Source of the DNA: Pyrococcus horikoshii OT3
GTDB taxonomy: Archaea > Methanobacteriota_B > Thermococci > Thermococcales > Thermococcaceae
Direction of reading: 5' to 3'
Assembly: GCF_000011105.1 (NCBI RefSeq)
Contig: NC_000961.1
Location: forward strand, 854,662 to 918,661
Length of the DNA: 64,000 nt
Shown: positions 6,075 to 26,986 of the stretch, piece after piece
Numbering within the stretch: the first letter of the stretch is position 1
How the letters are laid out: each line of letters opens with the position of its first letter
Position numbers and translations under genes: made by a program
The notes under the pieces: model-generated
What the model saw: the letters and a program-made list of their open reading frames with translations, nothing else
Databases searched by the model: none
Told to the model about the DNA's origin: nothing

Positions 6075-9000
6075 TCAAGAGATGGAAAGAAGCTCCAAAG
6101 CTTTCCTTTCAGTGAGGTAAGCCTTTCTCATATATACTGCGTACCAGTAGATAGCTGAAGGTGAAGGAATTCTTGGATAATACTCCCTTCCCTTTAGATA
6201 GTACTTCTCAGCTTCCTCGTGGAGTCTAATGGCCTCTTGTGAAGTTTCATTGCTCATCTTCATAATGAACTCCTCCTTCAGGCGCAGGTAATTCCTTTCC
6301 CAGATGATCCCAGCGTAGTACAAGACCCTAAAGATATCCTTCTTTTCAATTTTGCTTAACGTTACCTCTACTATCGGATCCTCAGAGAGGAATATGAATA
6401 GGTATCCCTTGGAGAGCTTGTAATAATTACCATGCTTTTCATCCCTCGTTACAGTCCCATTCTTTATGATTCTAATAGAGCTAACTTTCATTCCCTCTAA
6501 TGGAACTACTAGGATTGCATAGCCTCTGCTTATGCTTATCCTATACCTAATTTCATGCACTTTCTTCCCGTTCTCCTCGAATATCCTTGATGTTTTAGAG
6601 ATGTTTTCTATAGTTGAATTTATCCTAGCTAAGAGCCACGGATCCTTCCTACCCCTCTCATCTATTACCAACGTTCCTCCAGATGGGATCTTAAATCTTA
6701 GGCTCTCCTTCACAATCTCTACGATTATATCCCCCTCGAAATACACTCTAGTCTTAATATCTCCAGGAATCGTAACTATCTCGGTTCCATTGATGATCCT
6801 AACTTTAACGCTCCTATTAATGGTGAAGTTTACAGTGCTACATCCAACGTTACCCCATTTGTCACTTGCAAAAACATTTAGCTCATACTTACCGTCATCT
6901 AGCTCAACCCTTCCGATCCAAGTCTCGTTAACTTTTTCGAGGCTTAAGCTTTCACCGTTTATTGTGGCGGTAACATTAGCTATTCCAGATTCATCCGTAG
7001 CTCTGACCTTAATCTCTCTAATCGTCTCATTATAAGTCATGTTCCTGGGGAATAATATCTCCACAAGTGGGGGTATTTTATCCTCAACTTTTCTAGCCCT
7101 ACCGGATAATATGACTTCTTGGGTTAACTTCAGGGTTACCCTGGTGTAGTTCATAATTCCAACGATAGTTGCGTTCCTCTCGTACTCTGCACTCATCTCG
7201 CCAATGTCATTCTTAAGGTTCTTTTCAACGCTTATCAAGCTCCAGTTTTCTACGTTAACTTCTATGATTTCCTCAAAGTATTCTAGAGGAAGCGTAACGT
7301 TCCTCAACGTTAGATTAACCCAGACCTCAAAGTCTTTCAGGAAGTCCTTCCAAGATGTTGTGTTGTAGAATCCGAAATCTTTTGTATAGGAATACTCCTT
7401 GACCATCGTTAGGGTCGAACTACCGAAGACAACTACCTCCTTGCTTATGCTTGAGCTTAAGTTGTAGCTATCCCATACCGTCAGCGTAACGTTGTACCTT
7501 CCTCCCTTCCTATAAGTGTGGGTTGGATTTACTAATAAACTCGATTCATTGTCACCGAAATCCCATAGGTACTTTGAGATACCATCTTCATCACTTGCAT
7601 TTGCTTCAAACTTAACTGTGAGGTTATCTACCTCCCAGGAGAAGTCAACGCTTGGAGGCTCATTCACCCTGAATATGACACTTTTACTCACATTGTAGCT
7701 GACATCCCACGCGTAAATGGTGAAGTTGTGCCATCCATAGTCCAGCTTGATAAACCCGGAATAGCTTGCATTTGAAGATATTAGCTCTCCATTCAAATAA
7801 GCTACAACCCCTACTAGATCGTGGTTAACGACTGTATAGTTTATCATTACCTCCCTCGAATTGTATACCTTCTCTTCAGGGCTTTCTATGTATATCACTG
7901 GGGCCTCCGGGTTTAAGTAAATCCAGAGACTTACATTACCCCTATTCCCAAATTCATCTTCCGCGTATATAGCTACAGTGTTGTTTCCGATGTTGAGTGG
8001 AACTATCCCCTCCCAAGTGGAGCAGGTTCCGTTGCTTTCTACCTCCGTGAATTCCTTTGTATAGTTTCCTACCGCTCCCCAGACTAAAGTTATTCCCGTT
8101 TCATCGCAGGTTCTAACTTGAATCTTGGGTATCTCCGAATAAATTCCACTACTTGGGGTTACGTTAAGAGTTGGAGGAGATTCATCGAGCTCATGAGTGG
8201 CATTTCCAAGGAGAACAACCAACTGAGTTACGTTTACAATTAAGTATTTGAACTCTTCTAAGCCCTCAACTCTTACCCTTCTTGCATAGGTAGCGTTTAT
8301 CCATCCCCATCCCTTTGTTATATTCAGCATCTCTGAATAGTTCAGTAAGCTCCAGTTTCCTGGGAAGTAGTTCAGGACCTTAAAGTTAACTTTAGGAAGT
8401 TCTATTGTCGAAAGCGCCTCTTCAACCCAGCCCTCAAAGTCTCTCTTGAATTCATTCCAGTAGAAGGATTTGTAATGACCGAAGTCCTTCTCTTTAATGT
8501 AATTTTCAGTTAAGTTCCCATATACCTTCCTGTATGCAGTTACTGTTTTCGATAAGTTGTTAGCTGTGACTGTGTAATTACCTTCCTTCCTTATCTCAAC
8601 CGTGGAATTGATAACCTTCCACCTTCCACTCTCTATTATTTCGCTTCCCTCGGCTATCGTACTGTTTCCTAACTTAATAATATAAGAGTACTCACCACTC
8701 ACATCCCCAACGTTCGTCACGTTGAAGGTTATGGATAAGTTGAAGGGAACTATACCCCATTGAGGCTCAACTTTTAAACTTTCATTAAATTTTGGACCTA
8801 AATAAACCTTAATTTCCATAGTTTTCGAACTTTCTGTCCCTTTATCATCCCTAACCGTTAGTGTCACGTTATAGGTTCCCGGCTCTCTAAATACATAACT
8901 TACCTTATCCCCCACAAAGCTCTCGTTTCCAATCTTCCAAGTGTAAGCTATTATACTACCATCGGGATCATAGCTCAGGGATCCGTCTAGTACCACAGTT

Positions 9001-12000
9001 TCATTGGCAATCACAGGCTCTTTTACATATATCCTTGGAATTGGGGGTTGATTCGACTTGAGTATGTAAAACTCTGGAGTTCCCAAGTCAAGGACATGAA
9101 GCGTGCCATTTTCCATCCATTGATCCATCGGATTCTTCCCGTCACTCCTTACAACGCTACCCTTAAAGGGAACCGTGAAGTAAACCCAGAAAGGAGTTTT
9201 CATCTCTGGAATTATCTTTCTCATGCTCCCCTCCTCAACTTCCGTGAAATTCAGCAAGAGTACGTTGTAGTCAAATCCCCGGGAGTCTATTATCTTCTCA
9301 GGCTTTCCATCCCCATCATCATCAACTAAAAAGTCAAGCATCCCATCGTCATTCTCCGTGTTATTAAACGCCCTAATTAGGAAGTGCGTTCTAACTTCTT
9401 TAATCAACGAAGTTTCGTTTCCTCCTAGTTCATCGCTGTGCTTAAATGTTGCATTATACTGAAGGAACTTTCCACTGACTTCAGCGATCATGAGCCATGC
9501 GGCCGTTGAACTCTCTCCTGGGTTCAAGTCCCCAAAGTCTATTGTCAGGCTATTTGGAACTTTTTTACCATTTACTAGCGTCCCTATTATCTTAAAGTCT
9601 ATGTACACTCCAGGATAGTTAGATCTCTCAATTTTAGGCTGAGCTGAGGCTATACGCAATTTCCTTGCAGTTCCATATCCCACGTTCTTAACCCTAACCC
9701 CGAAGATGAAAGGTATTGGAAGTTCCTTCTCAGGGGTGTAGGGATCATCTCCAAACACATAGGAGGGGAGAACGTAGTCTAAGACAAGCTGTGGAACAGG
9801 TTCCACCTCTATCATAGCGGGCCAGGTCTCGTAAACTAACTTCGTACTTCCCACTCTAGCTGTTATATTAGCCATAACATAGTACCGCGCTCTGAACTTC
9901 TCAGCTGCTCCAACCTTTGGAATAATAAGCCACTTCATCTCGGCCGTTTTCTCTGGCTCCAGGGAACTTCCACTTAATCCAGCCTTTTCATCTAACCGTA
10001 CAAAGAACTTGTCGTCTACTCTATTGCCTTCTTCATCGAAGAATATTACTCTTACACTAACGTTCTCTAAACTATAATTCCTGTTAGTGTTTGTGAACTT
10101 CAATGAAGCTCTAAACGCTTGCCTCTCAAAGGTTAACCTCTGCTCTATCGTTAGAACGAGATCAACACACATGTGAAGCGTATTGCTCGGTTCCTCTTCA
10201 TCATGAGTTTCAGATTCTCTAAATAACCTACAAACCCTTTCTTTAACTACATCCTCTGAGGAACAAGTGCTACAGCTCATGGAGGTGCTGGACTTCTTAA
10301 CTGTGGGTAGACCACCACAAGTAAACCTTCCAACGGCCGTTCCACCGTCCCCTCCACCTGCAAGTCCACTTGGTATCATAGAAGGATATCCTCCTAGGGA
10401 ACCACTTGCAATAATTTGAATTGGCCTAATTTCCTCCCCCTCAGGTAGGGTACAATCGTTGCGCATTAGACAGATCGCACAGTTCAAAAACAGCTGAGCT
10501 ATGTATGGAGGAAGGTCCTCAGCCGCTTTGTCCAAAAGCTGGAGCAAACCTACACCACTTGCAATCCCTCCAAGGGCTCCTCCCATCTTGGACATCACAT
10601 TTAAAACTATGCCATTTGCGATATTCACAGCCTTCTTATAGTCAACTTTAAGCTGTCCATTTTCTATCTTTCCAACGCCCATTCCGAGAGCGTAAACTGG
10701 AGTAGCCGTTCTGCTAACTGCAAATCCGGCTATGTCCCCTTTTGGAGTCTTTATGAGGGTTAGCTGTAACGAGTTTATTTCTTGGTAAGCTACCGGATCA
10801 AACATGAAGAGCGAAGCCAAATTAGCCTTAACGGAGTTGAAGGTCTTCACGTAGTTCTCCATGTTCTCCTTAGTTGGGTTAGCTTTATAGGCATTATACG
10901 CATCGAAGAGCGATTCAAGATTGTTAAGAGCCTCTCCAGCCAAAGTTGAGAGAACTCCCGTATCGTCAATGTTACCGAGGGCTTGTCCAACCTTTTGGGC
11001 TATAGCCATAAAGGCTAATTTTCCAGCAACCGGAAATACGCTCTCCCAACAGCCCTTGCACGTGGGCTTTACGACTATCTGATGGATCCTCTGGGCTTTG
11101 AGCGTTATTTTCCCGGCTTCTTCAACGCAAACCACGCCGGCCTTAAGCTTGAAAACCTTAGTTTCGTGAAGGCATGGATTTATAGGTGGTGAACGGGAAT
11201 AGTAAATTCTAACGACATAGGGAACTATCACGGCTTCTCCTGGCTTCAACTCATCTATCCTGTTAATACCAAACTCAACGTCAATATAGTGACTCCCACC
11301 GCTCTCGAAAGTTACATTGTAGACGGAGATGTATTGATGCGTGTTCCTCACGATAACCTGCCCTCTAAACTCTAGCATCCCTTCTTCAGCTAGCTTTTCG
11401 TAGTCTACGTATACCTCAAGGTCTCCCCCTTCCATCCTTATTTCAGGGGCCGGAACGTGAGTTGAGTACCACATCTCATGCTTTATTATGTACACATCCT
11501 GAATGGTTACCGGAACTACCTCCCACTCAACCTCAAGAATTGAAGGTGTTAGAATAATGGAGACGTTCTTCTCAACACCGACCTCTATGGTTATTGAAGT
11601 ACTATATCCGTAGTACCCTTCAAGAGAAGCGAAGAGCTTATATTCACCTATAGGAACATTTTCAACTTCGAGGGTGCCATTTTTGTTAGTGTATCCTTCA
11701 AAGTGGAAGTATCCGTTGTAAAGTGTCAGCTTGACGTTTTCTAACCTCGTTGCATTGGGATCCATTACAGTTACCTTAACGCCTCCCGTCGCATTTGGGG
11801 TAACCCTAATTCTCATTGGGACTTTTATTGGGTTATAGTTCGAGGAAGATATCGTTATCTCACCTTTAAAGGTTCCAGTAACGTTCCTAGGTGGCTCTAT
11901 GTAAAGGGAAATGCTCTCATTATCTTTTGGATCAACCTCTGTGAAGTTTGACACTACCTTAACCCAGGGGATTGAAGATCTAATGCTAACGTTTCTTAAT

Positions 12001-15000
12001 GCAGTGAATCCTAAGTTTCTAACAACTACCTCCGCACTCGCAGTTTCGTTTGTGAGAACTCCAACATCCAGGAAGTTAGGAGATGTAACTATAGCTGGGG
12101 CTGGAGGAAGGACTTTCAACTTTAAGGTTAAGCTCCTAGTGATGTTCAATCCAAGTTGCCTTGCTTTGAACGTTATCATGATGCTCCCGTTTACAGCGTT
12201 CTTACTTGATAGCCCAATGTTTATAATATTACTTCCTGGTTTAAGATGAAGAACTTTGGGAATTGAAACCTCATATTCTGGAGGGGCCTTAACGCTGACC
12301 GAAACGTCGGAAGCCCTCCAATAGTTTATCAATCTAACCCTCACGGTTCCATTAAACTCAACTGGAACGGTGAGGAGGTACAAGCTTGGAATTACTTCGA
12401 TTCCTACAACATCAAATTCAGCATCCCTCTCAAGTAGCTCAATCTTTGGATGAGTTGCACTGACTATGAAGTGACCTGACTCCCCCTTAAAGGGCCTAAA
12501 GGTTAAGTTGAAATACCCATTCTCATTCGTCGTAACTATGTACTCCCTAACGAACCCTCCTCTTGCTATTGATACCTTCACTGGAACGTTTGATAGCATC
12601 CCGCTCTCGTTGTAAGCTACCCCCGTAATAAGGATCTCCTTTCCAACCTCATAAACGCTACTAACGCTAACATCGGCATTGTATTCAGGTTGCTCAGCAG
12701 TTAGCGTTAAGCTTTTCCTAAATTTGCCCACATCAGTGTTAACCGTAGCATTTATCTCAACGTTTTCCTCAGAGATTAAATACTCAAAAGATTCCTCAAC
12801 TGAGAGATTTGGAGGGAGTTCTATGGATAATCTTTTGCTCATTCCGTTTAGCTCTATGCTCTTAACGAAAATAGGAGCAGAACCAATGTTCCTGAACGAA
12901 ACGTAGATTTTCGCCTTTCCTCCCTTGATGAAGTTCTCTGTGGATATAGTTATTGGATTAAGCACAGACTCGCTTACATTAACGATTTTTCTTACCTCAA
13001 CATCTGCTATCCTAAAGGTTAAATTATAGCTTCCCTTCTTGGGAGGAACTATTTTATATCTAAGTACGGTTTTCTTCCCAGGAGGTATTGTTAATGGAGC
13101 TTCTATTAGCTCTCCTGAGGAATTATCCAGCTTCATTAATGTTTCTGAGGTGTTAAGCTCCACAATTCCACAGTTCCTAATCTCGACCTCGACTAAACCA
13201 GGGAATCCTGCAAGTAGTTTACCTACCCTTATTTCTGGGTTTTCTCCCTCTCTAACCTTGGCGCGGTGAATAATCCTAGCGGTTGAGTTTCCTACCTTTA
13301 GCTCTCCCCTAATTAGAGTTAGTCCTCTCGGCACCATGAACACGAATTCATGGCTTGATCTTCCTCTAGGAACTTCAACTTTCCTACTAAGCTTTTCAAT
13401 CTCATTTCCGAATTCGTCTATAAGGATTATAGACAACGTTCCGTTAGCTTCTCCGTCTAAGTTTTCCACCTTGACTTTTACAGCTCCTGGGTAGCCTGCG
13501 GTTAGGTTTTCCTCATCAACCTCAAGCTTAACTGGAAAGACTTCCGTCTTCTCACTTTCGAATCCAGAGAAATCGATGGCCGAGATGCTGTAGTTTAGGG
13601 TTCCTGAATAAATATCTCTAAAGTTAGGTTTTTCAATTGGGACTTCATTTAACCTTTTGCCATCTTTATAAATGAAGTAACCCGCGACGTCAGAGTCTGG
13701 ACTTGGGAGCCAACTAAGTTCAACGTAACTCCCGTTTAGCATCAACGTAACCCCGGATGGTGGAGAGGGAACACCATTTACAGTGAATCTAATGATTTTC
13801 TCGGCCAAGTTACCGGCTTTATCCTTGGCAGTCACGTTTAACGTGTATGTCCCATCTAATTTTATAGGCCCACTGAACTCCCTTCCGTTAACCTTTACCT
13901 TATACCAGTCAAGATTATCGTCGATTACCTGGACTCCAGGAACTACGGTTCCGTTGTAGAGAGTTCCATCTGTTAAGTTACATACTATCCTGGGGGGCTC
14001 CCTATCCAGCGTGAAGTTCCAGCTGTAAGTTATCTCGTTACCGGCCCTATCTACGGCCTTAACAGTCACGGTATACTTTCCATCTAGGAGGGGTGTTGAA
14101 TTCTGGAAGATTAGCCATCCTCCTGAGAATTTTGTACTCCCAGGAACAGACGTTCCTTCGCGATAAACCTCGATCTCTCCAAACTTAACTCCCGAACCCT
14201 CATCTCTCAGATAAGCCCCTATATAGGGTTTGTTCGTAAACGTTCCATTTTCTGGATAGGTTAACTTTAGAACTGGGGGTTCTTCATCCTCTATAAATAC
14301 TTTTACCATTCCTTCGTTGTTGCTTTCGTTTTCCTCGTATACTTCATCATACGGGTCCACAATGGCCCTAAGAGCGTACTCCCCATAACTAGCCCTCCAC
14401 TTAAATTCCAGGGTTATGCTTTCTCCCTTGTCTATCTTAGTTACCCTGTTTATACCTACAAAAGAGCTGTTAGCATAGAGAACAATGTAGAAGGGTAACT
14501 TACTAGATTCGCCAATATTCTTCACGGTTACCTTGATAATAATCTCCTCCCCAGCTACCTCCTTTCCAGAGTGGGTAATGTTTTCAACAGTAAGATCTGG
14601 GGATGGGACGCTAACTTCAATATCCAGCTTATTGTTCTCCTCATCCCACTCCCTTACAGAATTATACGGATCCGCGATCACGCTCACGTTGTAATCTCCA
14701 GAGTCAACGAGCCAGGGAACATTAACTTCAATTTCTTCCCCAGGAGTGATGCTATCTACGTAAGCGCTCCCAAGTTTTCTTCTCTTGTTCCTGATCAAAA
14801 GGTAAACGCCGGACTTATAGTCCCCAGAGTTCCGAATTCTAACTTTTGCATTGACCATTTCACCCGGGTAAGTAAAGTTCCCAAGGTCTGCACTAACTAC
14901 TACTATGTCGGGGGCCTTTACGTAAGATCTAACTGAGATCTCGTTATTATCTTCGTTAAGCTCAACTACGGCATTTGTTGGATCAACAACCACCTTAAAC

Positions 15001-18000
15001 GTCGAGTTTCCTGGGTAAGGTCTTATCGTTAGCGTTACCTCTTTTACTTCTCCCGAAGCTAGGGAATAAACAGGAGCGCTTCCCAAAAGTTTTCCATCCT
15101 GATAAAGGGAAACGTAAAATATCCTCTTTACATCCTGTCCTCCAGAGTTCTTTATGGTAGCATTAACTTTAAAGTAGCTGTTTGCATGCATACTTGGAAT
15201 GTTCAAGCTCAAAACCTCGATGTCCGGGAGTACTATTGTTACGTTCTCGACTATTGCATTGTTATCCTCGTTAGACTCTGGTATGTAGTCCTGGGGATCC
15301 ACAACAATCCTAACCTCTTTTCTTCCCCCACTGCTAAACCGCCACCTTAAAGTTCTCTCAGCGGTTTCTCCGTGTAGGAGCTTGTTTATCCAAACAGATG
15401 ACTTGGGCTCACCATCAACGAACATTTGAACATAGAATCCCCTGTAGACGTCTCCTCCTGTATTGGTAACGTTAACTTTATATGCCAGGTATCCTCTCCT
15501 AACCTCTTCCTCGAGCCATTCATATCCACTTAACATAAGCTCGGGCGATTCAACGTAATAAGTCCTTTCTATTATGTTGTTACTCTCGTTACCTTCTACA
15601 ATCCTGTTTCCAGGATCGACCTCTACCTTAACTCTGACCTCACCCACCCTATCAACGTACCAGGGTAAGGTCACACTCTTACTTTCGTTCTCCTTTATTC
15701 CATATACCGTCCTATAGTACCTCTCCCCACTTACATTAAAGAGAACCGTTATTGGCCTGTATATGGAATCCCCTAGGTTCTTAACCGTGGCATTTATCCT
15801 AACAAACTTTCCATAGGCTAGATCCTCTACACTCAAGTTTTCCAACTTAAAATCAGGAGTTCCTACGTTCCCTAAGAAAGCTGAGAATTCGTTATTGCTC
15901 TCATTACCTTCAGGGATGCTATTATAGTAATCCACAACTATCTTCACCGTTAAGTTCCCGGGCTTGGCGTTATACCACCTCCAATTGAATTCCTTGGTTT
16001 CTCCTTTCCCAAAACTCCAGTTCCTAGGATACGCGTTCGTTGAGTATATTTTCCTCGTACCGTTCCAGATCTCAGCCCTAACGGTAAAGCTCTTAAGAAA
16101 CGGCTGTCCGAGGTTTTTAACGTAGATTGTAAATAGCACATTCTCACCAGAGGTGAAGTTATAGGGAGCCCAAGTAATCCCCTCAACTTTAAGATCCGGT
16201 TTCCCAAAGCTTAAGCTGAACGTCAAGTTATTGTTCTCTTCATTTTCCTCTATCCACCTATTGTAAGGATCTAAAACTATGCTTAAGTTGTGCTTTCCTG
16301 AGGAAGGTAGATAGCGGAGGGTAACATCCCTAGAAGCTCCGCTCTCAAGTCCATAAACTGAAGTAGAGGTTTTAATAATTCCATTATCAAAGAGATCAAC
16401 CCTGATACCATCACTAAAGTTTCCTCCCAGGTTTGAGATGTTTAAAACTATTGGATAGGCCTTGTAGAGGTAGGCTGTTCCATTGAGAATCTCATCTGGA
16501 ATTGAGTAGTTCAATATAGCAAAGTCTGGCTTCTCTAGCGTTAGGATGAGGGTATCGTTGTTGTTCTCGTAGATATTTTCGTACTCATCTACTATCCTTC
16601 CCATTATCTTATTCGTTCCACCGTTTAAGGTAATCCATACAACTTGGGAAATGTTAGCTCCTGGGGAAAGCGTTGCAGGGGCCAGTTCGTACCTTCCCAG
16701 GGTATGGGTTTTCCCATTTTCATCTTCAAGGGTTACGTAAAGACCTAAATATGGGCTATACCAGCTACTTCTGTCTATCCTTAGCGTTGCATTACCGACG
16801 TTCTTCACTAAGAACGTTATCTTAACGTCTTTCCCTGCCGAGAGTTCTCCACTGGGTGGGATTATACCCAATTCGAGGTCAGGATAACCCGTCGTATAGT
16901 TGATTATAAGGGAGTTATCCGAGTACGATGTCTCATTAACTTTCATGTTATAGTTTACCGTTACGTTTATCGTTGAACCTGGGGGAAGCATGGCCAGGGA
17001 ATCAATTGAGATCGTGTAATTATCACGTATTATCCCCCTTAGATAAGACACCTTCCATCCATATTCAGTTTTGATCTTCACGGGTACTTGATAAGAGGTT
17101 GCATTGTAAGGAGCCCCCACATTCCCTATGGTAATGTTTAGTGGGATGTAACCGACTGTGTTATTGGGTAGGGAGATTTCTTTCACAACGAAGTTAGGCT
17201 TTGGAATATAGCCCATATTATAAAAGATCACGTTATTTCCCTCATTTGTCTCGGAAATCACGTTATGTGGATCAACAACAAAAATCAACGTGGAGTTCCC
17301 ACCGTTTATGGGGAGGCTTATTATCGTCCATTTTTCTTCCCCGGATTTTATACCTCTCAAATAAGCAATACTACTCCTCAAGCCACCGTAAACGGCTATT
17401 GAGAAATATCCAGAATAATCCTCTCCCTCATTCTTAACGGTCACATTGAACTTTGCTTTACTACCAGCAATCCCATCGAAACTTAGAAGTTCAACTTTTG
17501 AAATTTTGAAGTCGGGTGCATTGACAAAGATCAACCTAGAGAGCCTATTGTTACCTTCATTTATCTCGTCTACGTAGGAATATGGGTCTACGACAACGGT
17601 TAGGTTAACGAGGCCAGCATTACCAGGTTTCCAAGTTAACGTCACATTCGTTTCATTGTTGATCCTAACCCTTCTCCAGTCCTTGGATGTTCCATTTTCG
17701 TAAAGCTTAACTAGGACGTTTCTACCGTAGCAACCCCCTAGATTATCTAAGGTAACATTGACTTCGTATAGATTGCCGATACTCACATTCCCTGGGATGT
17801 TCAGCGATTTAACAGTAAAGTCGGGTTTTTCTATGATGATGTGGTATGGAACTTCAACCTTGTTGTCGCTCTCATTACTTTCCTCAACTTCGTTCCATGG
17901 ATCAATCTCAATAACTACTTTTTCGAGGGTTCCTGCCTTGATCATAGGGGTAAAAATAACCTCACTCTCCTCCTCACCCTTAGTTGATATATACCGGGTA

Positions 18001-19385
18001 TATGACCGATTACCTTCCTCATAAACGAGGGTTAGCCTAACGGGGATACTCCAGTTTGCGGTGCTAGTAACGTTAACTCTAACTTCCCCTGTAGAGTCCA
18101 CACAAGTCGGTAGGTCAATGGAATAGTTTCCTACCTCGAAGTTGGGTAGAGGGAAATTGTAGTTCCCTAGGAGGTAAATGTTATTGCTACTATTTATATC
18201 CCCTTTACCCTCAACTAGGAGTGCCAAAGTATAGTTTCCTCCCTGAACTAACCATGAGATTTCTCCTTCAGCGATCCCATTATAAAAGCTTAGATACTCT
18301 ATCTTCTCTTCAACTCCATTGCGAAGTAGTTTTACCTTTGCAGAGGGAATTTTTGACGTGGTTCTTACCTTAAAATTTATGGAAGCAAATTCTCCTGGGA
18401 TTAAATTATTAATGGAGGCGTTTTCTACCCAATAATCTCCGGGCCAAACCCCTACTTCAGCTAAATTGTTAGAAAGATCGGGGTCATCCATGCAGTTGGC
18501 AAAAACCTCAACGTGATAATTGGACAGGGGAAGCGTTAGAAGATAGCTTCCGCTCTCACGAACTTGATAAGTATAGAGCTTTGGGGTTCCCAATGGAACT
18601 TGGATTGCAAAGCTCTTTCCCTCTCCCTTTGTAAACCCCTTAACATCACCTGAAACCTTAGAATAATAACCAGAGAACAGATCATAGTCATGATAAGAAT
18701 ACTCTAGAGATTTGTAGCTCCAGGTTATAGTTCCGTTAGAGTTTATTATGACTTGAAAGTTTATATTATCTACAATTTCACTCTCATAATCTTCATATGT
18801 TGATGCCAGCCACTCGATCACGATCTTGTCTTGAAGGTTAACTAGGAGGAGGTAACCATCATATGTCACGAGATCCTCATCGAGTCCAAAGATCACGTCA
18901 CTCTCGTAAAATTCTCCCTCTTCATGTATTCCGTAGTAATCCTCAATTCTTGGCTCCTCATACTCCTCAAGAAGCTCAATCAGGCCGTTAGTATTTACAG
19001 CTATCTTCTTTATCTCCCTCCCAAAGTAGTTAAGCGAGAATGGAAGCTCATAAATGAAGTAGCCATCATCCTCCCTCATTATAACGTTTCCATCTCTAAG
19101 GTATTCTCCGTAGGTTGCCTCAGTTGCACTTTCAATGTACTCACTTAAGTTCATCCATGTAAATGAGATCTCACTAACATTTGGGGCCTCGATAGGGGAG
19201 AAAACTGAAAACGTTAGGTTACAAGACCCAGCATCATATAGCGTTGCGTTGATAACTACACTGTCTCCAGCGAGATAATAGTCAGCAAATACTTTAGTAT
19301 CTTTACTACCTTCCCCTAGCGCCCAAGGTGGTATTAAAGAAATAAAAAGGATGAGCGTTAAGATTAACCCCTTAATATTTATCAT
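6075..19385 (-). CDS. Giant exported CARDB/PKD multidomain surface protein, 4436 residues
   Basis: Very large exported protein with a signal peptide at residues 1-24 (hydrophobic core LILTLILFISLIPPWALG). Residues about 50-290 hold a nidogen-like segment. About 13 CARDB-type Ig repeats follow (about 300-1690), each ending in a signature like ENEENNN or EGNESNN. Then come Ig-like triple-strand domains (EPPVLKLTYPENG), an Fn3 domain near 1875, more Ig-like repeats, a carboxypeptidase-regulatory-like domain near 2540-2600, a Cys-containing region near 2750-3050, two PKD domains (near 3450 and 3910) each followed by a shared unfamiliar module, and a helical C-terminus. No C-terminal membrane anchor is obvious. 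It is rich in N-glycosylation sequons. Adhesion or cell-envelope scaffolding is inferred from domains only. Confidence 0.85.
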   Translation of the reverse strand: MINIKGLILTLILFISLIPPWALGEGSKDTKVFADYYLAGDSVVINATLYDAGSCNLTFSVFSPIEAPNVSEISFTWMNLSEYIESATEATYGEYLRDGNVIMREDDGYFIYELPFSLNYFGREIKKIAVNTNGLIELLEEYEEPRIEDYYGIHEEGEFYESDVIFGLDEDLVTYDGYLLLVNLQDKIVIEWLASTYEDYESEIVDNINFQVIINSNGTITWSYKSLEYSYHDYDLFSGYYSKVSGDVKGFTKGEGKSFAIQVPLGTPKLYTYQVRESGSYLLTLPLSNYHVEVFANCMDDPDLSNNLAEVGVWPGDYWVENASINNLIPGEFASINFKVRTTSKIPSAKVKLLRNGVEEKIEYLSFYNGIAEGEISWLVQGGNYTLALLVEGKGDINSSNNIYLLGNYNFPLPNFEVGNYSIDLPTCVDSTGEVRVNVTSTANWSIPVRLTLVYEEGNRSYTRYISTKGEEESEVIFTPMIKAGTLEKVVIEIDPWNEVEESNESDNKVEVPYHIIIEKPDFTVKSLNIPGNVSIGNLYEVNVTLDNLGGCYGRNVLVKLYENGTSKDWRRVRINNETNVTLTWKPGNAGLVNLTVVVDPYSYVDEINEGNNRLSRLIFVNAPDFKISKVELLSFDGIAGSKAKFNVTVKNEGEDYSGYFSIAVYGGLRSSIAYLRGIKSGEEKWTIISLPINGGNSTLIFVVDPHNVISETNEGNNVIFYNMGYIPKPNFVVKEISLPNNTVGYIPLNITIGNVGAPYNATSYQVPVKIKTEYGWKVSYLRGIIRDNYTISIDSLAMLPPGSTINVTVNYNMKVNETSYSDNSLIINYTTGYPDLELGIIPPSGELSAGKDVKITFLVKNVGNATLRIDRSSWYSPYLGLYVTLEDENGKTHTLGRYELAPATLSPGANISQVVWITLNGGTNKIMGRIVDEYENIYENNNDTLILTLEKPDFAILNYSIPDEILNGTAYLYKAYPIVLNISNLGGNFSDGIRVDLFDNGIIKTSTSVYGLESGASRDVTLRYLPSSGKHNLSIVLDPYNRWIEENEENNNLTFSLSFGKPDLKVEGITWAPYNFTSGENVLFTIYVKNLGQPFLKSFTVRAEIWNGTRKIYSTNAYPRNWSFGKGETKEFNWRWYNAKPGNLTVKIVVDYYNSIPEGNESNNEFSAFLGNVGTPDFKLENLSVEDLAYGKFVRINATVKNLGDSIYRPITVLFNVSGERYYRTVYGIKENESKSVTLPWYVDRVGEVRVKVEVDPGNRIVEGNESNNIIERTYYVESPELMLSGYEWLEEEVRRGYLAYKVNVTNTGGDVYRGFYVQMFVDGEPKSSVWINKLLHGETAERTLRWRFSSGGRKEVRIVVDPQDYIPESNEDNNAIVENVTIVLPDIEVLSLNIPSMHANSYFKVNATIKNSGGQDVKRIFYVSLYQDGKLLGSAPVYSLASGEVKEVTLTIRPYPGNSTFKVVVDPTNAVVELNEDNNEISVRSYVKAPDIVVVSADLGNFTYPGEMVNAKVRIRNSGDYKSGVYLLIRNKRRKLGSAYVDSITPGEEIEVNVPWLVDSGDYNVSVIADPYNSVREWDEENNKLDIEVSVPSPDLTVENITHSGKEVAGEEIIIKVTVKNIGESSKLPFYIVLYANSSFVGINRVTKIDKGESITLEFKWRASYGEYALRAIVDPYDEVYEENESNNEGMVKVFIEDEEPPVLKLTYPENGTFTNKPYIGAYLRDEGSGVKFGEIEVYREGTSVPGSTKFSGGWLIFQNSTPLLDGKYTVTVKAVDRAGNEITYSWNFTLDREPPRIVCNLTDGTLYNGTVVPGVQVIDDNLDWYKVKVNGREFSGPIKLDGTYTLNVTAKDKAGNLAEKIIRFTVNGVPSPPSGVTLMLNGSYVELSWLPSPDSDVAGYFIYKDGKRLNEVPIEKPNFRDIYSGTLNYSISAIDFSGFESEKTEVFPVKLEVDEENLTAGYPGAVKVKVENLDGEANGTLSIILIDEFGNEIEKLSRKVEVPRGRSSHEFVFMVPRGLTLIRGELKVGNSTARIIHRAKVREGENPEIRVGKLLAGFPGLVEVEIRNCGIVELNTSETLMKLDNSSGELIEAPLTIPPGKKTVLRYKIVPPKKGSYNLTFRIADVEVRKIVNVSESVLNPITISTENFIKGGKAKIYVSFRNIGSAPIFVKSIELNGMSKRLSIELPPNLSVEESFEYLISEENVEINATVNTDVGKFRKSLTLTAEQPEYNADVSVSSVYEVGKEILITGVAYNESGMLSNVPVKVSIARGGFVREYIVTTNENGYFNLTFRPFKGESGHFIVSATHPKIELLERDAEFDVVGIEVIPSLYLLTVPVEFNGTVRVRLINYWRASDVSVSVKAPPEYEVSIPKVLHLKPGSNIINIGLSSKNAVNGSIMITFKARQLGLNITRSLTLKLKVLPPAPAIVTSPNFLDVGVLTNETASAEVVVRNLGFTALRNVSIRSSIPWVKVVSNFTEVDPKDNESISLYIEPPRNVTGTFKGEITISSSNYNPIKVPMRIRVTPNATGGVKVTVMDPNATRLENVKLTLYNGYFHFEGYTNKNGTLEVENVPIGEYKLFASLEGYYGYSTSITIEVGVEKNVSIILTPSILEVEWEVVPVTIQDVYIIKHEMWYSTHVPAPEIRMEGGDLEVYVDYEKLAEEGMLEFRGQVIVRNTHQYISVYNVTFESGGSHYIDVEFGINRIDELKPGEAVIVPYVVRIYYSRSPPINPCLHETKVFKLKAGVVCVEEAGKITLKAQRIHQIVVKPTCKGCWESVFPVAGKLAFMAIAQKVGQALGNIDDTGVLSTLAGEALNNLESLFDAYNAYKANPTKENMENYVKTFNSVKANLASLFMFDPVAYQEINSLQLTLIKTPKGDIAGFAVSRTATPVYALGMGVGKIENGQLKVDYKKAVNIANGIVLNVMSKMGGALGGIASGVGLLQLLDKAAEDLPPYIAQLFLNCAICLMRNDCTLPEGEEIRPIQIIASGSLGGYPSMIPSGLAGGGDGGTAVGRFTCGGLPTVKKSSTSMSCSTCSSEDVVKERVCRLFRESETHDEEEPSNTLHMCVDLVLTIEQRLTFERQAFRASLKFTNTNRNYSLENVSVRVIFFDEEGNRVDDKFFVRLDEKAGLSGSSLEPEKTAEMKWLIIPKVGAAEKFRARYYVMANITARVGSTKLVYETWPAMIEVEPVPQLVLDYVLPSYVFGDDPYTPEKELPIPFIFGVRVKNVGYGTARKLRIASAQPKIERSNYPGVYIDFKIIGTLVNGKKVPNSLTIDFGDLNPGESSTAAWLMIAEVSGKFLQYNATFKHSDELGGNETSLIKEVRTHFLIRAFNNTENDDGMLDFLVDDDGDGKPEKIIDSRGFDYNVLLLNFTEVEEGSMRKIIPEMKTPFWVYFTVPFKGSVVRSDGKNPMDQWMENGTLHVLDLGTPEFYILKSNQPPIPRIYVKEPVIANETVVLDGSLSYDPDGSIIAYTWKIGNESFVGDKVSYVFREPGTYNVTLTVRDDKGTESSKTMEIKVYLGPKFNESLKVEPQWGIVPFNLSITFNVTNVGDVSGEYSYIIKLGNSTIAEGSEIIESGRWKVINSTVEIRKEGNYTVTANNLSKTVTAYRKVYGNLTENYIKEKDFGHYKSFYWNEFKRDFEGWVEEALSTIELPKVNFKVLNYFPGNWSLLNYSEMLNITKGWGWINATYARRVRVEGLEEFKYLIVNVTQLVVLLGNATHELDESPPTLNVTPSSGIYSEIPKIQVRTCDETGITLVWGAVGNYTKEFTEVESNGTCSTWEGIVPLNIGNNTVAIYAEDEFGNRGNVSLWIYLNPEAPVIYIESPEEKVYNSREVMINYTVVNHDLVGVVAYLNGELISSNASYSGFIKLDYGWHNFTIYAWDVSYNVSKSVIFRVNEPPSVDFSWEVDNLTVKFEANASDEDGISKYLWDFGDNESSLLVNPTHTYRKGGRYNVTLTVWDSYNLSSSISKEVVVFGSSTLTMVKEYSYTKDFGFYNTTSWKDFLKDFEVWVNLTLRNVTLPLEYFEEIIEVNVENWSLISVEKNLKNDIGEMSAEYERNATIVGIMNYTRVTLKLTQEVILSGRARKVEDKIPPLVEILFPRNMTYNETIREIKVRATDESGIANVTATINGESLSLEKVNETWIGRVELDDGKYELNVFASDKWGNVGCSTVNFTINRSVKVRIINGTEIVTIPGDIKTRVYFEGDIIVEIVKESLRFKIPSGGTLVIDERGRKDPWLLARINSTIENISKTSRIFEENGKKVHEIRYRISISRGYAILVVPLEGMKVSSIRIIKNGTVTRDEKHGNYYKLSKGYLFIFLSEDPIVEVTLSKIEKKDIFRVLYYAGIIWERNYLRLKEEFIMKMSNETSQEAIRLHEEAEKYYLKGREYYPRIPSPSAIYWYAVYMRKAYLTERKALELLSIS

Positions 19386-23943: not shown

Positions 23944-26847
23944 TCACTCGATGAAGATGGCAGGCTTAAGCGGCATTGCTTGCTTTTTCTTCCCTCCCTT
24001 ATCTTCGGTTGGATTTATGATTATCTCAATTCCTAGTTCCTTCTCCATGAACTCCTTGGCCTCTCTTAGGGCTTTCTCTTCATTGATCCTCTTGACATCA
24101 AAGGTTCTCTCCTTTATCAGCTTCTGAACGATCTTGGCAACCTCCTTTCCGTGCTTCCTTATCTCAGAATCCTTCATCAACTCCTCCATAGAGGACTTGA
24201 AGTCCCTTTTCTCACTGACTACCTCCGCAACTTTCCACTTCCAGTCTTCAGCTGTGTATATGTAAGCCCTCTTTGCGTTCTCTATCTTAGCTACCTCTAT
24301 TATCTCCTTAATATCCTCCATAACTGATCTGATGAATTCTTCTTCCGCTTCTATTGTCTCGTTCCACCACTCCTCAACCGGCTCTGGCCACTTTGCTAGG
24401 CTAACGAAGCCTTCACCTCCAAGCTTCTCCCAGAGTTCCTCACATATGTGCGGCGTAAATGGGGCCATAAGTCTAACCCACACATCCGCTAGGGTTCTAA
24501 GCACGTACCTCTTAGCCTCGTCATCCCTTCCCTCGGTTCTTCTTAGGTACCACCTTAAGTCATTCATTATACTGTAGAAGGCCCATTGAACAGCGGTTCT
24601 AGTCCTAAACTCTTCAAGGGCATTAGTTGTCTCTTTTATAGCTTTGTTAAGCCTGTGGAGCATCCATCTATCTATATCCTTCAGCTCGACATTTCCTTTT
24701 ACCTCGTACTCTGCGAATTGACTTATTAGCTCGTAGAACCTTTCGATCTGCTTCCTCAGCTTTCCTACCTCCTTCCTCCTCCAGTCAAAGTCACTGTCAT
24801 GCTCGGCCAAGCTCATTATGTAAAGCCTAACGACATCCGCTCCATTCTCTTCGATGGCATCTATGAAGTTTAGAACGTTCCCCTTGCTCTTACTCATCTT
24901 TTGCCCCTCTAGAGTTCCGAAGCCGTTAACTGCGATTCCCTTGGGCCAATGCTCCTCCCGGAATATCGCCACGTGGTTGAATATGAAGAAAGTCAAGTGG
25001 TTTGGAATTAAGTCTTTACCTGAGCACCTCCAGTCTAGAGGATACCAGTACTCAAACTCTTCCTTCATCTCGTGAATTATCTCAGCTGGGATTCCAGTTT
25101 TTTTCTCAAGCTCCTTCTCCTTATCCTCGCTGAACTCCTCCAGGAATATGTAGTCGAAGAACTCCGGAGTTAGTTTCTCTGGATCTAGCTTCCCTTCCTG
25201 TCTTAGCTTGTTTATGTGCCTGCTGATCGTGTAATAGGCCATGTAGATCGTGGAATCGCTCAAACTCTCAATAACCCACTCAGGATCCCAGGGTAGGGGG
25301 GTTCCAAGCCCAATCTTTCTCGCGCATGCCTTCTTGTCAAGCCAATCTATTATAGCTTCAAACTGAGCCCTCCTGGTCTCTGGTAGAATCTTCATCCTTT
25401 CAAGTGCTTTTCTTGCTTTTTCTTTCCACTCTGGATTTCCATAGTCAATGAACCACTGATCATGGATTATCTTTATTACGGCCCTGTTTCCAAACCTTGA
25501 GATTACGTTCTTCTCGGCGAACTCGTACATTATCTCAGCTATACCTTTTTCCAGCATTTCCTTGGCTATAGCTTCTTTAACCTCCTGGACGGGCTTCCCC
25601 TCGTATGGGGGTACCTTGAATATACCCTTATGGTACTCGGCCTTGTATATAGTTTTAGTTGCCTGCTCCAGTTTCTCCTTATCCTTTTGACTCTTTATGC
25701 CAAGTTTATTTACCTCCTCAACCGCTGGGAAGTCTCCATATCCTTCAAGCTTTATCAGGGAGATGTACGTTATGTTCTCGACGATCCTTGGATCTATGTC
25801 GTACTTCTCAAGTATTTCAGTTTCCCTCTTCAAATCTTCAAGGGCTACGTGGTCGAACGGAGCATGGGCAGGAACGCTCATCACGACTCCAGTAGCGTTG
25901 TCCGGATCGACAAATTCTGCTGGCAAGATAATAACTTCATCCCCACTCACCGGATTTCTCACGTACTTTCCGATTAGCTTCTCTCCCTTGAATTCTTCGA
26001 TCACCTCTATTTCCCTATCCTGGAAGGAGAGCTTGTAAGCAGCTTCTTTACTGACTATCCAAGTTTCTTCCTTATCCTTTCTCCTGACCTTAGCTTTCAC
26101 GTAGGTTGCATTTGGATTTACCCACATATTGGTGACTCCATAGACGGTTTCAGGCCTTAGGGTTGCGGCAGGTAGATATATTACCTCCCCGTTTTCCCTC
26201 AATTCGAACTTTATTATTATGTAATCAAGTATCGGAACATCTTCCCCTTCCATGAGGTCGTGATCTCCAAGTGGGGTTCCAACCACGGGATCCCATCTCA
26301 CTCTATGGGCCCCTTTAACGATGTAGCCTTTCTCCTTCAGCTTCCAGAACTGCCACTCAATGAACTTGCTGAACGGCGGGAATAGGGAGGTTGTGTAGAA
26401 CTCCCTGCTCCAGTCAACGCTAAATCCAGCCCTTATAAACGTCTCTTTTGCTGCTTTCATGAAATACTTAACTATGTTTATTGGATCCTCAAAAGTCCAC
26501 AAAATTTCCTCCGGAACCTTATATACATCCCTATAGATCCATATCGTTTTTGGATCCCTATTCTTTATCCTCTCGGCTATCCCAACTATTGGAGAACCTG
26601 TAATGTGCCATGCCATTGGGAATAGGACGTTGTACCCCTGCATTCTCTTGAATCTGGCTATCACATCTGGAATCGTATAAGTCCTTGCGTGCCCTACGTG
26701 TAGGTGTCCTGACAGATAGGGAAATGCCACTGTAATGTAGAACTTCTTCTCCTTTGGCTTATCTCTTATATTCGGTTCAAAAATCTTCGCCTCAAGCCAC
26801 CTTTTCTGCCATTTCTCCTCAATAGCCTTGAAGTTAAGCTCAGCCAT
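23944..26847 (-). CDS. leuS: Leucyl-tRNA synthetase
   Basis: 967-residue class I synthetase of the archaeal/eukaryotic type. The HIGH motif is present as HVGH (about 50-53) and KMSKS as GQKMSKSKGN near 680. The CP1 editing domain between them contains the LRPETVYGVTN and VPAHAPFDH elements. An archaeal C-terminal extension ends in MPLKPAIFIE. Length is normal. The ATG at 26847 has a GGGAGGT ribosome site about 10 bp upstream. Unusually for this genome, the promoter lies about 130 bp upstream and the leader carries a small reading frame and hairpin (separate entries). Confidence 0.98.
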   Translation of the reverse strand: MAELNFKAIEEKWQKRWLEAKIFEPNIRDKPKEKKFYITVAFPYLSGHLHVGHARTYTIPDVIARFKRMQGYNVLFPMAWHITGSPIVGIAERIKNRDPKTIWIYRDVYKVPEEILWTFEDPINIVKYFMKAAKETFIRAGFSVDWSREFYTTSLFPPFSKFIEWQFWKLKEKGYIVKGAHRVRWDPVVGTPLGDHDLMEGEDVPILDYIIIKFELRENGEVIYLPAATLRPETVYGVTNMWVNPNATYVKAKVRRKDKEETWIVSKEAAYKLSFQDREIEVIEEFKGEKLIGKYVRNPVSGDEVIILPAEFVDPDNATGVVMSVPAHAPFDHVALEDLKRETEILEKYDIDPRIVENITYISLIKLEGYGDFPAVEEVNKLGIKSQKDKEKLEQATKTIYKAEYHKGIFKVPPYEGKPVQEVKEAIAKEMLEKGIAEIMYEFAEKNVISRFGNRAVIKIIHDQWFIDYGNPEWKEKARKALERMKILPETRRAQFEAIIDWLDKKACARKIGLGTPLPWDPEWVIESLSDSTIYMAYYTISRHINKLRQEGKLDPEKLTPEFFDYIFLEEFSEDKEKELEKKTGIPAEIIHEMKEEFEYWYPLDWRCSGKDLIPNHLTFFIFNHVAIFREEHWPKGIAVNGFGTLEGQKMSKSKGNVLNFIDAIEENGADVVRLYIMSLAEHDSDFDWRRKEVGKLRKQIERFYELISQFAEYEVKGNVELKDIDRWMLHRLNKAIKETTNALEEFRTRTAVQWAFYSIMNDLRWYLRRTEGRDDEAKRYVLRTLADVWVRLMAPFTPHICEELWEKLGGEGFVSLAKWPEPVEEWWNETIEAEEEFIRSVMEDIKEIIEVAKIENAKRAYIYTAEDWKWKVAEVVSEKRDFKSSMEELMKDSEIRKHGKEVAKIVQKLIKERTFDVKRINEEKALREAKEFMEKELGIEIIINPTEDKGGKKKQAMPLKPAIFIE

Positions 26848-26986
26848 GCCTAAAACCTCCCTTTAATTTTGTAAGAGAAGAGCTAGAATAACAAGTAGGG
26901 AAGTCAGTGGACATCAAAGATACGGAGGAGAAGGTACTCCCTCCTCATTGGCATCGCTTCTTGTAAGGGTCTTGGGTATTTAAAAG
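26848..26986 (-). promoter_or_regulatory. leuS promoter and long structured leader
   Basis: On the minus strand a TATA-like CTTTTAAATA (26977-26986) predicts a start near 26954, giving a leader of roughly 107 bases. That is long for an archaeon whose neighbours are leaderless or nearly so. The leader has a GC-rich hairpin at about 26924-26944 (arms GGAGG and CCTCC plus an inner GAG/CTC with a bulge). The hairpin overlaps the Leu codons of a 16-codon frame beginning at the predicted transcript 5' end. A GGGAGGT ribosome site then precedes leuS. Regulation by leucine or tRNA-Leu charging is a hypothesis. Confidence 0.5.
26904..26954 (-). CDS. Candidate leucine-rich leader peptide upstream of leuS
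   Basis: A 16-codon frame reads MPMRREYLLLRIFDVH and ends in TGA 56 bp before the leuS ATG. Its ATG is 27 bp from the centre of the TATA-like box, exactly where a leaderless message would start. It has three consecutive Leu codons (CTT CTC CTC) and lies in front of the leucyl-tRNA synthetase gene. The Leu codons are in the 3' arm of a predicted hairpin. This resembles bacterial attenuation peptides, but the match could be chance. No homologues were checked. Confidence 0.35.
   Translation of the reverse strand: MPMRREYLLLRIFDVH

Follow-up and report, generated by a model that had tools for sequence, protein, structure and literature searches.

The region upstream of the leucyl-tRNA synthetase gene leuS in Pyrococcus horikoshii OT3 appears, from its sequence, to be an amino-acid-sensing frameshift leader, and the regions upstream of ileS, valS and a gene for a winged-helix protein appear to share its logic; we give this reading a probability of about 0.8. 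The architecture of these leaders is conserved, they carry cognate codons, and their +1 frame is under selection to stay open. Control of leuS by the Leu codon of a short leader frame that seems to be leaderless or nearly so, as a sequence-only reading of the P. horikoshii DNA had proposed, is strongly supported by this conservation and by the Ile and Val counterparts at ileS and valS. The same reading had placed ribosome stalling in the arm of a hairpin, a part that fits the leaders less well, and the leader evidence points to a programmed +1 frameshift rather than to hairpin attenuation.

The leuS leader of P. horikoshii

The window, as we call the whole stretch of 64,000 nucleotides analysed, carries leuS (leucyl-tRNA synthetase, 967 aa) on the minus strand at 23944..26847, and all leader features given below lie on the same strand. 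Reading of the sequence places a TATA-like promoter element, CTTTTAAATA, at 26977..26986, followed by an ATG at 26954 that opens a leader frame of 16 codons (MPMRREYLLLRIFDVH; frame 0, 26904..26954, also drawn from the leader alignment). Its stop codon TGA (26906-26904) is 56 nt upstream of the leuS ATG (26847), and a separate leuS Shine-Dalgarno (SD) site, GGGAGG, is found downstream of the frame at 26856..26861. The sequence-only reading had described all of these elements correctly. It had also stated that the metG and proS upstream regions lack such frames, and indeed no core was seen there when the window was read by eye.

Within the leader frame, the first ATG is present as described, but comparison of leaders shows a second in-frame ATG (26946..26948; MRREYLL...) to be the best conserved start, the first having become ATA in many ileS copies. 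The second ATG is followed by an SD-like purine run, AGGAGGGA (26938..26945; AGGGGGGA in most species), by the presumed shift (P-site) codon CTT (26931..26933; GTT in other species and TTT in ileS) and by the hungry codon CTC (Leu; 26928..26930), which leader comparison suggests as the sensor. Skipping of base 26930 would bring a ribosome into a +1 frame, SSVSLMSTDFPTCYSSSSLTKLKGGFRHG, read from the sequence at 26840..26929, the TGA stop of which (26842-26840) lies inside leuS codons 2-3. Elsewhere on the minus strand of the window (6075-19385) there is one ORF of 4436 aa, apparently for a giant repetitive secreted protein.

Conservation of the cassette

The pattern GATGCCNATGAGGRGGGA, with at most one mismatch, is present in 91 of 94 Thermococcaceae genomes and almost never in a reversed-pattern control, a frequency far above chance. 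It usually occurs twice per genome, the second place being upstream of ileS. In the leuS upstream regions of about 75 Thermococcaceae genomes a near-invariant block, GATGCYNATGAGGRGGGAKNNN(C/G)TTCTC, is located at the predicted transcript start, and the extended pattern ATGAGGRGGGANNNNNTTMTC was found in all six Thermococcaceae genera but not in any of the 21 further genomes of the class. The conserved core can be written as ATG AGG RGG GAN NNN NTT, followed by the hungry codon. Conservation of the frame in relatives, which had been suggested as a check on the leader, was borne out by alignment: it is in register in all 78 distinct core-bearing leuS leaders. A TATA-like 8-mer likewise precedes every one of them (78/78), its centre lying 31-35 nt upstream of the second ATG and some 25-29 nt upstream of the first; from this position the transcript is predicted to start at the first ATG or slightly before it. 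One Pyrococcus genome also carries a broken extra copy of leuS (G007:C1:675064-677156), of about 84% identity and with an internal TGA.

Upstream of valS a shorter, related cassette, GGTGGTGNMT ATC GTC, is present; with three more specified bases it has an exact match in 67 of the 94 genomes and none in the reversed control. A short element, TTCTGGGTTAG or close variants of it, is common to ileS and valS leaders (e.g. L163, L254, L255).

Hungry codons and P-site codons

The in-register codon that follows NTT is CTC in the leuS leaders, once replaced by CTT (also Leu), and ATC (Ile) in the ileS leaders. The hungry codon of the valS cassette is GTC (Val), and valS, initially taken as a control, thereby proved to be a further positive. 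Cognate codon and synthetase thus match in three cases, leuS, ileS and valS. The winged-helix gene has a core of the leuS/ileS type with TGC (Cys), or in one case TGT, also Cys. The leuS leaders share a single, essentially invariant regulatory codon rather than a run of such codons, and the neighbouring codons vary. The three consecutive Leu codons noticed in P. horikoshii accordingly differ in standing: the second is the essentially invariant CTC (CTT once), the first is either CTT or GTT, and the third, although present in P. horikoshii, is elsewhere often His, Arg, Asn or Ser.

The P-site codons are CTT or GTT in leuS and the winged-helix gene, TTT in ileS and AUC in valS. On a +1 slip the valS AUC would become UCG, with which re-pairing is not possible, and a slip there would therefore need out-of-frame A-site binding or another route.

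The +1 frame is kept open

From the shift site to the synthetase start the +1 frame is free of stops in 77 of 78 distinct leuS leaders (1 stop vs. about 104 in dinucleotide shuffles), in 32 of 32 distinct ileS leaders (0 vs. about 29 in dinucleotide shuffles) and in 31 of 32 distinct valS leaders (1 vs. about 61 in mononucleotide shuffles). Frame 0 always ends early and is open to the synthetase in none of the leuS, ileS and valS leaders, and for frame +2 the open fractions are 22/78, 5/32 and 0/32, respectively. Since the leaders are related, substitution counts on a tree are the fairer test, and they were used in place of identity clustering, which chained the leaders into one group and had little power. 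The 881 substitutions counted for leuS would be expected to create about 29 new +1 stops, and none is present; for ileS, 269 substitutions and about 8 expected stops are likewise set against none, and for valS, 589 substitutions and about 20 expected stops against one. The +1 stop itself lies near the synthetase start and often overlaps it, as ATGGCTGA in leuS and ATGA in ileS, being found at +8 nt in 33 leuS leaders and at +4 (the ATGA overlap) in 22 of 32 ileS leaders.

The sequence of the +1 peptide is not conserved. Its dN/dS of about 0.7 in leuS and about 1.4 in ileS led us to reject a functional +1 peptide and indicates that translation, not a peptide, is under selection. What selection maintains, as judged from these comparisons, is that ribosomes can travel on from the leader codon until they reach the synthetase start.

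Ribosomes could enter the +1 frame without a frameshift if it were another upstream frame with its own initiation and coupled to the synthetase, and possible starts do exist: 53 of the 78 leuS +1 frames, that of P. horikoshii included, hold some ATG, GTG or TTG, and 11 hold an ATG. Yet 25 leuS, 24 ileS and 10 valS +1 frames have none of the three codons, the stretch without stops sets in at the shift site, where a start further on would not keep the first codons open, and the winged-helix and MFS genes described below lack starts near their beginning. We regard independent initiation as very improbable beside a frameshift.

Genes read in the +1 frame

In all 29 genomes with the winged-helix cassette (29/29), the winged-helix protein (about 70-90 aa; L220-L248; Pfam HTH_20 and MarR_2) is encoded in the +1 frame, in most of them without a usual start. 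The +1 frame also has a stop 3 to about 24 nt upstream, in one genus as a TAG directly upstream of the shift site, and in the Pyrococcus loci frame 0 has a stop directly after TGC; between them these stops confine the shift to NTT-TGC. Expression of the winged-helix protein seems to require a +1 shift at the Cys codon, and its targets possibly belong to cysteine or sulfur metabolism.

In three genomes (G028, G086 and G087; L300, L301 and L302) the valS +1 frame is an MFS transporter gene of 401-404 codons (E 1e-28), which ends 4 or 14 nt before valS and has no start codon near its beginning. The transporter, lying between the valS cassette and valS, may be controlled jointly with valS. If the frameshift reading is true, the missing usual start of the winged-helix gene and of these MFS genes is explained by their beginning in another frame. 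One of the three genomes also has a TnpB/IS605-OrfB-like gene (Pfam Cas12f1-like_TNB, E 7e-23) inserted in its leuS leader (G087:C1:227900-229500; L306), directly after the shift site and in the +1 frame. This gene has neither a start nor a stop of its own, and the leuS +1 frame, open over 428 codons, continues through it until 14 nt beyond the leuS ATG.

An apparent need of the winged-helix gene for the shift for any expression at all would also suit a +1 shift that is real but constitutive, the cognate codon then being incidental or a remnant. Against this, the codon matches the synthetase for Leu, Ile and Val alike and has been kept, and the sole leuS variant, CTT, is a synonymous Leu codon. 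A constitutive shift is accordingly improbable in our view, and a shift that responds to the cognate tRNA is preferred.

G-run, SD pairing and RNA structure

Most cores contain GGGGGG; P. horikoshii leuS and several Pyrococcus cores have AGGAGGGA instead, with no run above three G, and the valS cassette has no G-run. The frequent G6 run might suggest that RNA polymerase, not the ribosome, changes frame by slippage, but the Pyrococcus cores and the valS cassette provide no such run, and polymerase slippage would leave the cognate codon unexplained, which makes it hardly credible. With an assumed anti-SD sequence, the predicted core/anti-SD duplex in leuS has a mean of -9.8 kcal/mol vs. -5.1 kcal/mol for the best other leader site; on the same assumption, core duplexes of -9.8 and -9.2 kcal/mol stand against about -5 kcal/mol elsewhere in the leader, and pairing is predicted to be strong in all cores. 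The SD spacing of leuS and ileS exceeds that of E. coli prfB.

We also considered control of the classical kind, by ribosome-mediated attenuation or at the level of translation, in which stalling at Leu codons alters RNA pairing around the leuS site. It would account for cognate codons in a leader frame, and in many Thermococcus leuS leaders the G-run could, by reading, pair with a downstream C-run. However, the GC-rich hairpin proposed for P. horikoshii, with the Leu codons in its 3' arm, is weak: the 118-nt leuS leader folds no better than its shuffles (z = -1.0), and the arm on the Leu side is absent from the homologous ileS leaders. Other readings suit the leader better than stalling within the hairpin arm, given this absence from ileS, a +1 frame that is stop-free in every lineage, which attenuation does not predict, and a single essential Leu codon. 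Nor would it account for the +1 frames that encode winged-helix, MFS and TnpB-like proteins, and we consider attenuation unlikely, the evidence as a whole favouring the frameshift leader.

The C-run, CCCCCTAT, is seen in leuS leaders such as L014 and L028, and its pairing with the core G-run could fold the leuS leader when it is free of ribosomes. Calculated accessibility indicates a slight effect of sequestration of the synthetase SD site in leuS and none in ileS, and for these two leaders such calculations did not discriminate between leader unfolding and reinitiation. A search of Rfam gave no T-box match among families up to E = 5 and no relevant family.

Proposed mechanism

From sequence we infer that a slip occurs, that starvation triggers it, that the G-run has a part in it and that leuS expression gains by it, and the following model is proposed. 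Translation would begin on MPMRREY..., at the mRNA 5' end, and the ribosomes would then cross the internal SD-like G-run. With ample CUC-reading Leu-tRNA, CUC would be decoded in frame, and the TGA that lies 56 nt short of leuS would end translation. When Leu-tRNA is scarce, the A site would stay empty at CUC while the SD-like run holds the ribosome, allowing a +1 slip, and the shifted ribosome would translate the +1 frame as far as the stop overlapping the leuS start. This passage would open the leader and deliver ribosomes to leuS by coupled termination and reinitiation, and leuS synthesis would rise as Leu-tRNA falls. Archaea are known to couple translation where a stop and a start codon overlap (PMC6728339). 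The same logic would apply to ileS with AUC, to valS with GUC and to the winged-helix gene with UGC. The model predicts exact sites, products and codon swaps.

If true, it would represent a previously unreported way of sensing amino-acid shortage and a case of cellular archaeal genes regulated by +1 frameshifting, and it would explain how an archaeal lineage can adjust its branched-chain tRNA synthetases to demand with neither attenuators nor T-boxes. It would also be a natural regulatory use of hungry-codon frameshifting; whether such frameshifting is used under natural conditions is left open in a review of frameshifting (PMC5009743), to which these leaders would then give a natural answer.

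Comparison with known systems

No report of frameshifting in the leuS, ileS or valS leaders of Thermococcales was found in the open-access literature, subscription papers and supplements being outside the search, and neither Pyrococcus nor Thermococcus is mentioned in the main text of two reviews, PMC5009743 and PMC8211752, the latter on archaeal recoding. The closest parallel in design is the +1 frameshift of bacterial prfB (release factor 2), which, as described in the main text of PMC5009743, has a short frame 0 with an internal SD-like run, a slippery NUU followed by a slow A-site codon, and an effect that is obtained only after the +1 shift. The leaders described here share the short frame 0 followed by an open +1 frame at a fixed site, and their SD-like run, NUU codon (AUC in valS) and slow codon would act likewise. 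In prfB the factor that decodes the slow codon exerts negative feedback, which also resembles the proposed circuit. Unlike the UGA of prfB, the slow codon here is a sense codon (CTC, ATC, GTC or TGC), which in the synthetase leaders matches the enzyme under control, and the shifted peptide is expendable, the target being a separate downstream synthetase or regulator gene, whereas the prfB shift yields RF2 itself. The leaders are moreover archaeal and differ in SD spacing.

The nearest leader example is the ketolide-induced frameshift of ErmCL/ermC, in which, according to section 28 of the same review (PMC5009743), ribosomes shifted in the leader enter the spacer and the downstream gene is turned on, as proposed here. 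That system is bacterial and triggered by an antibiotic, while the proposed trigger here is aminoacyl-tRNA. The present system works like prfB, yet it is a member of neither the prfB nor the ErmCL type.

With leader-peptide attenuation the leaders share a cognate codon in a leader frame that would sense charged tRNA, but they have no regulatory codon cluster and apparently no conserved alternative hairpins, and their output would come from a change of reading frame. As in T-box riboswitches, the specificity would lie in one specifier codon, which is swapped from one synthetase gene to another; unlike in T-boxes, which gave no Rfam match here, this codon would be read by the ribosome in a translated frame. 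The parts are known and the frameshift chemistry may be prfB-like; the sensing logic appeared nowhere in the open-access literature searched. Probably, though with somewhat less assurance than we attach to the leuS leader itself, these leaders constitute a third general cis-acting sensor of aminoacyl-tRNA beside attenuation and T-boxes, namely a cassette retargeted by one codon, in which scarcity of a charged tRNA would cause a +1 frameshift and thereby translation of the matching synthetase.
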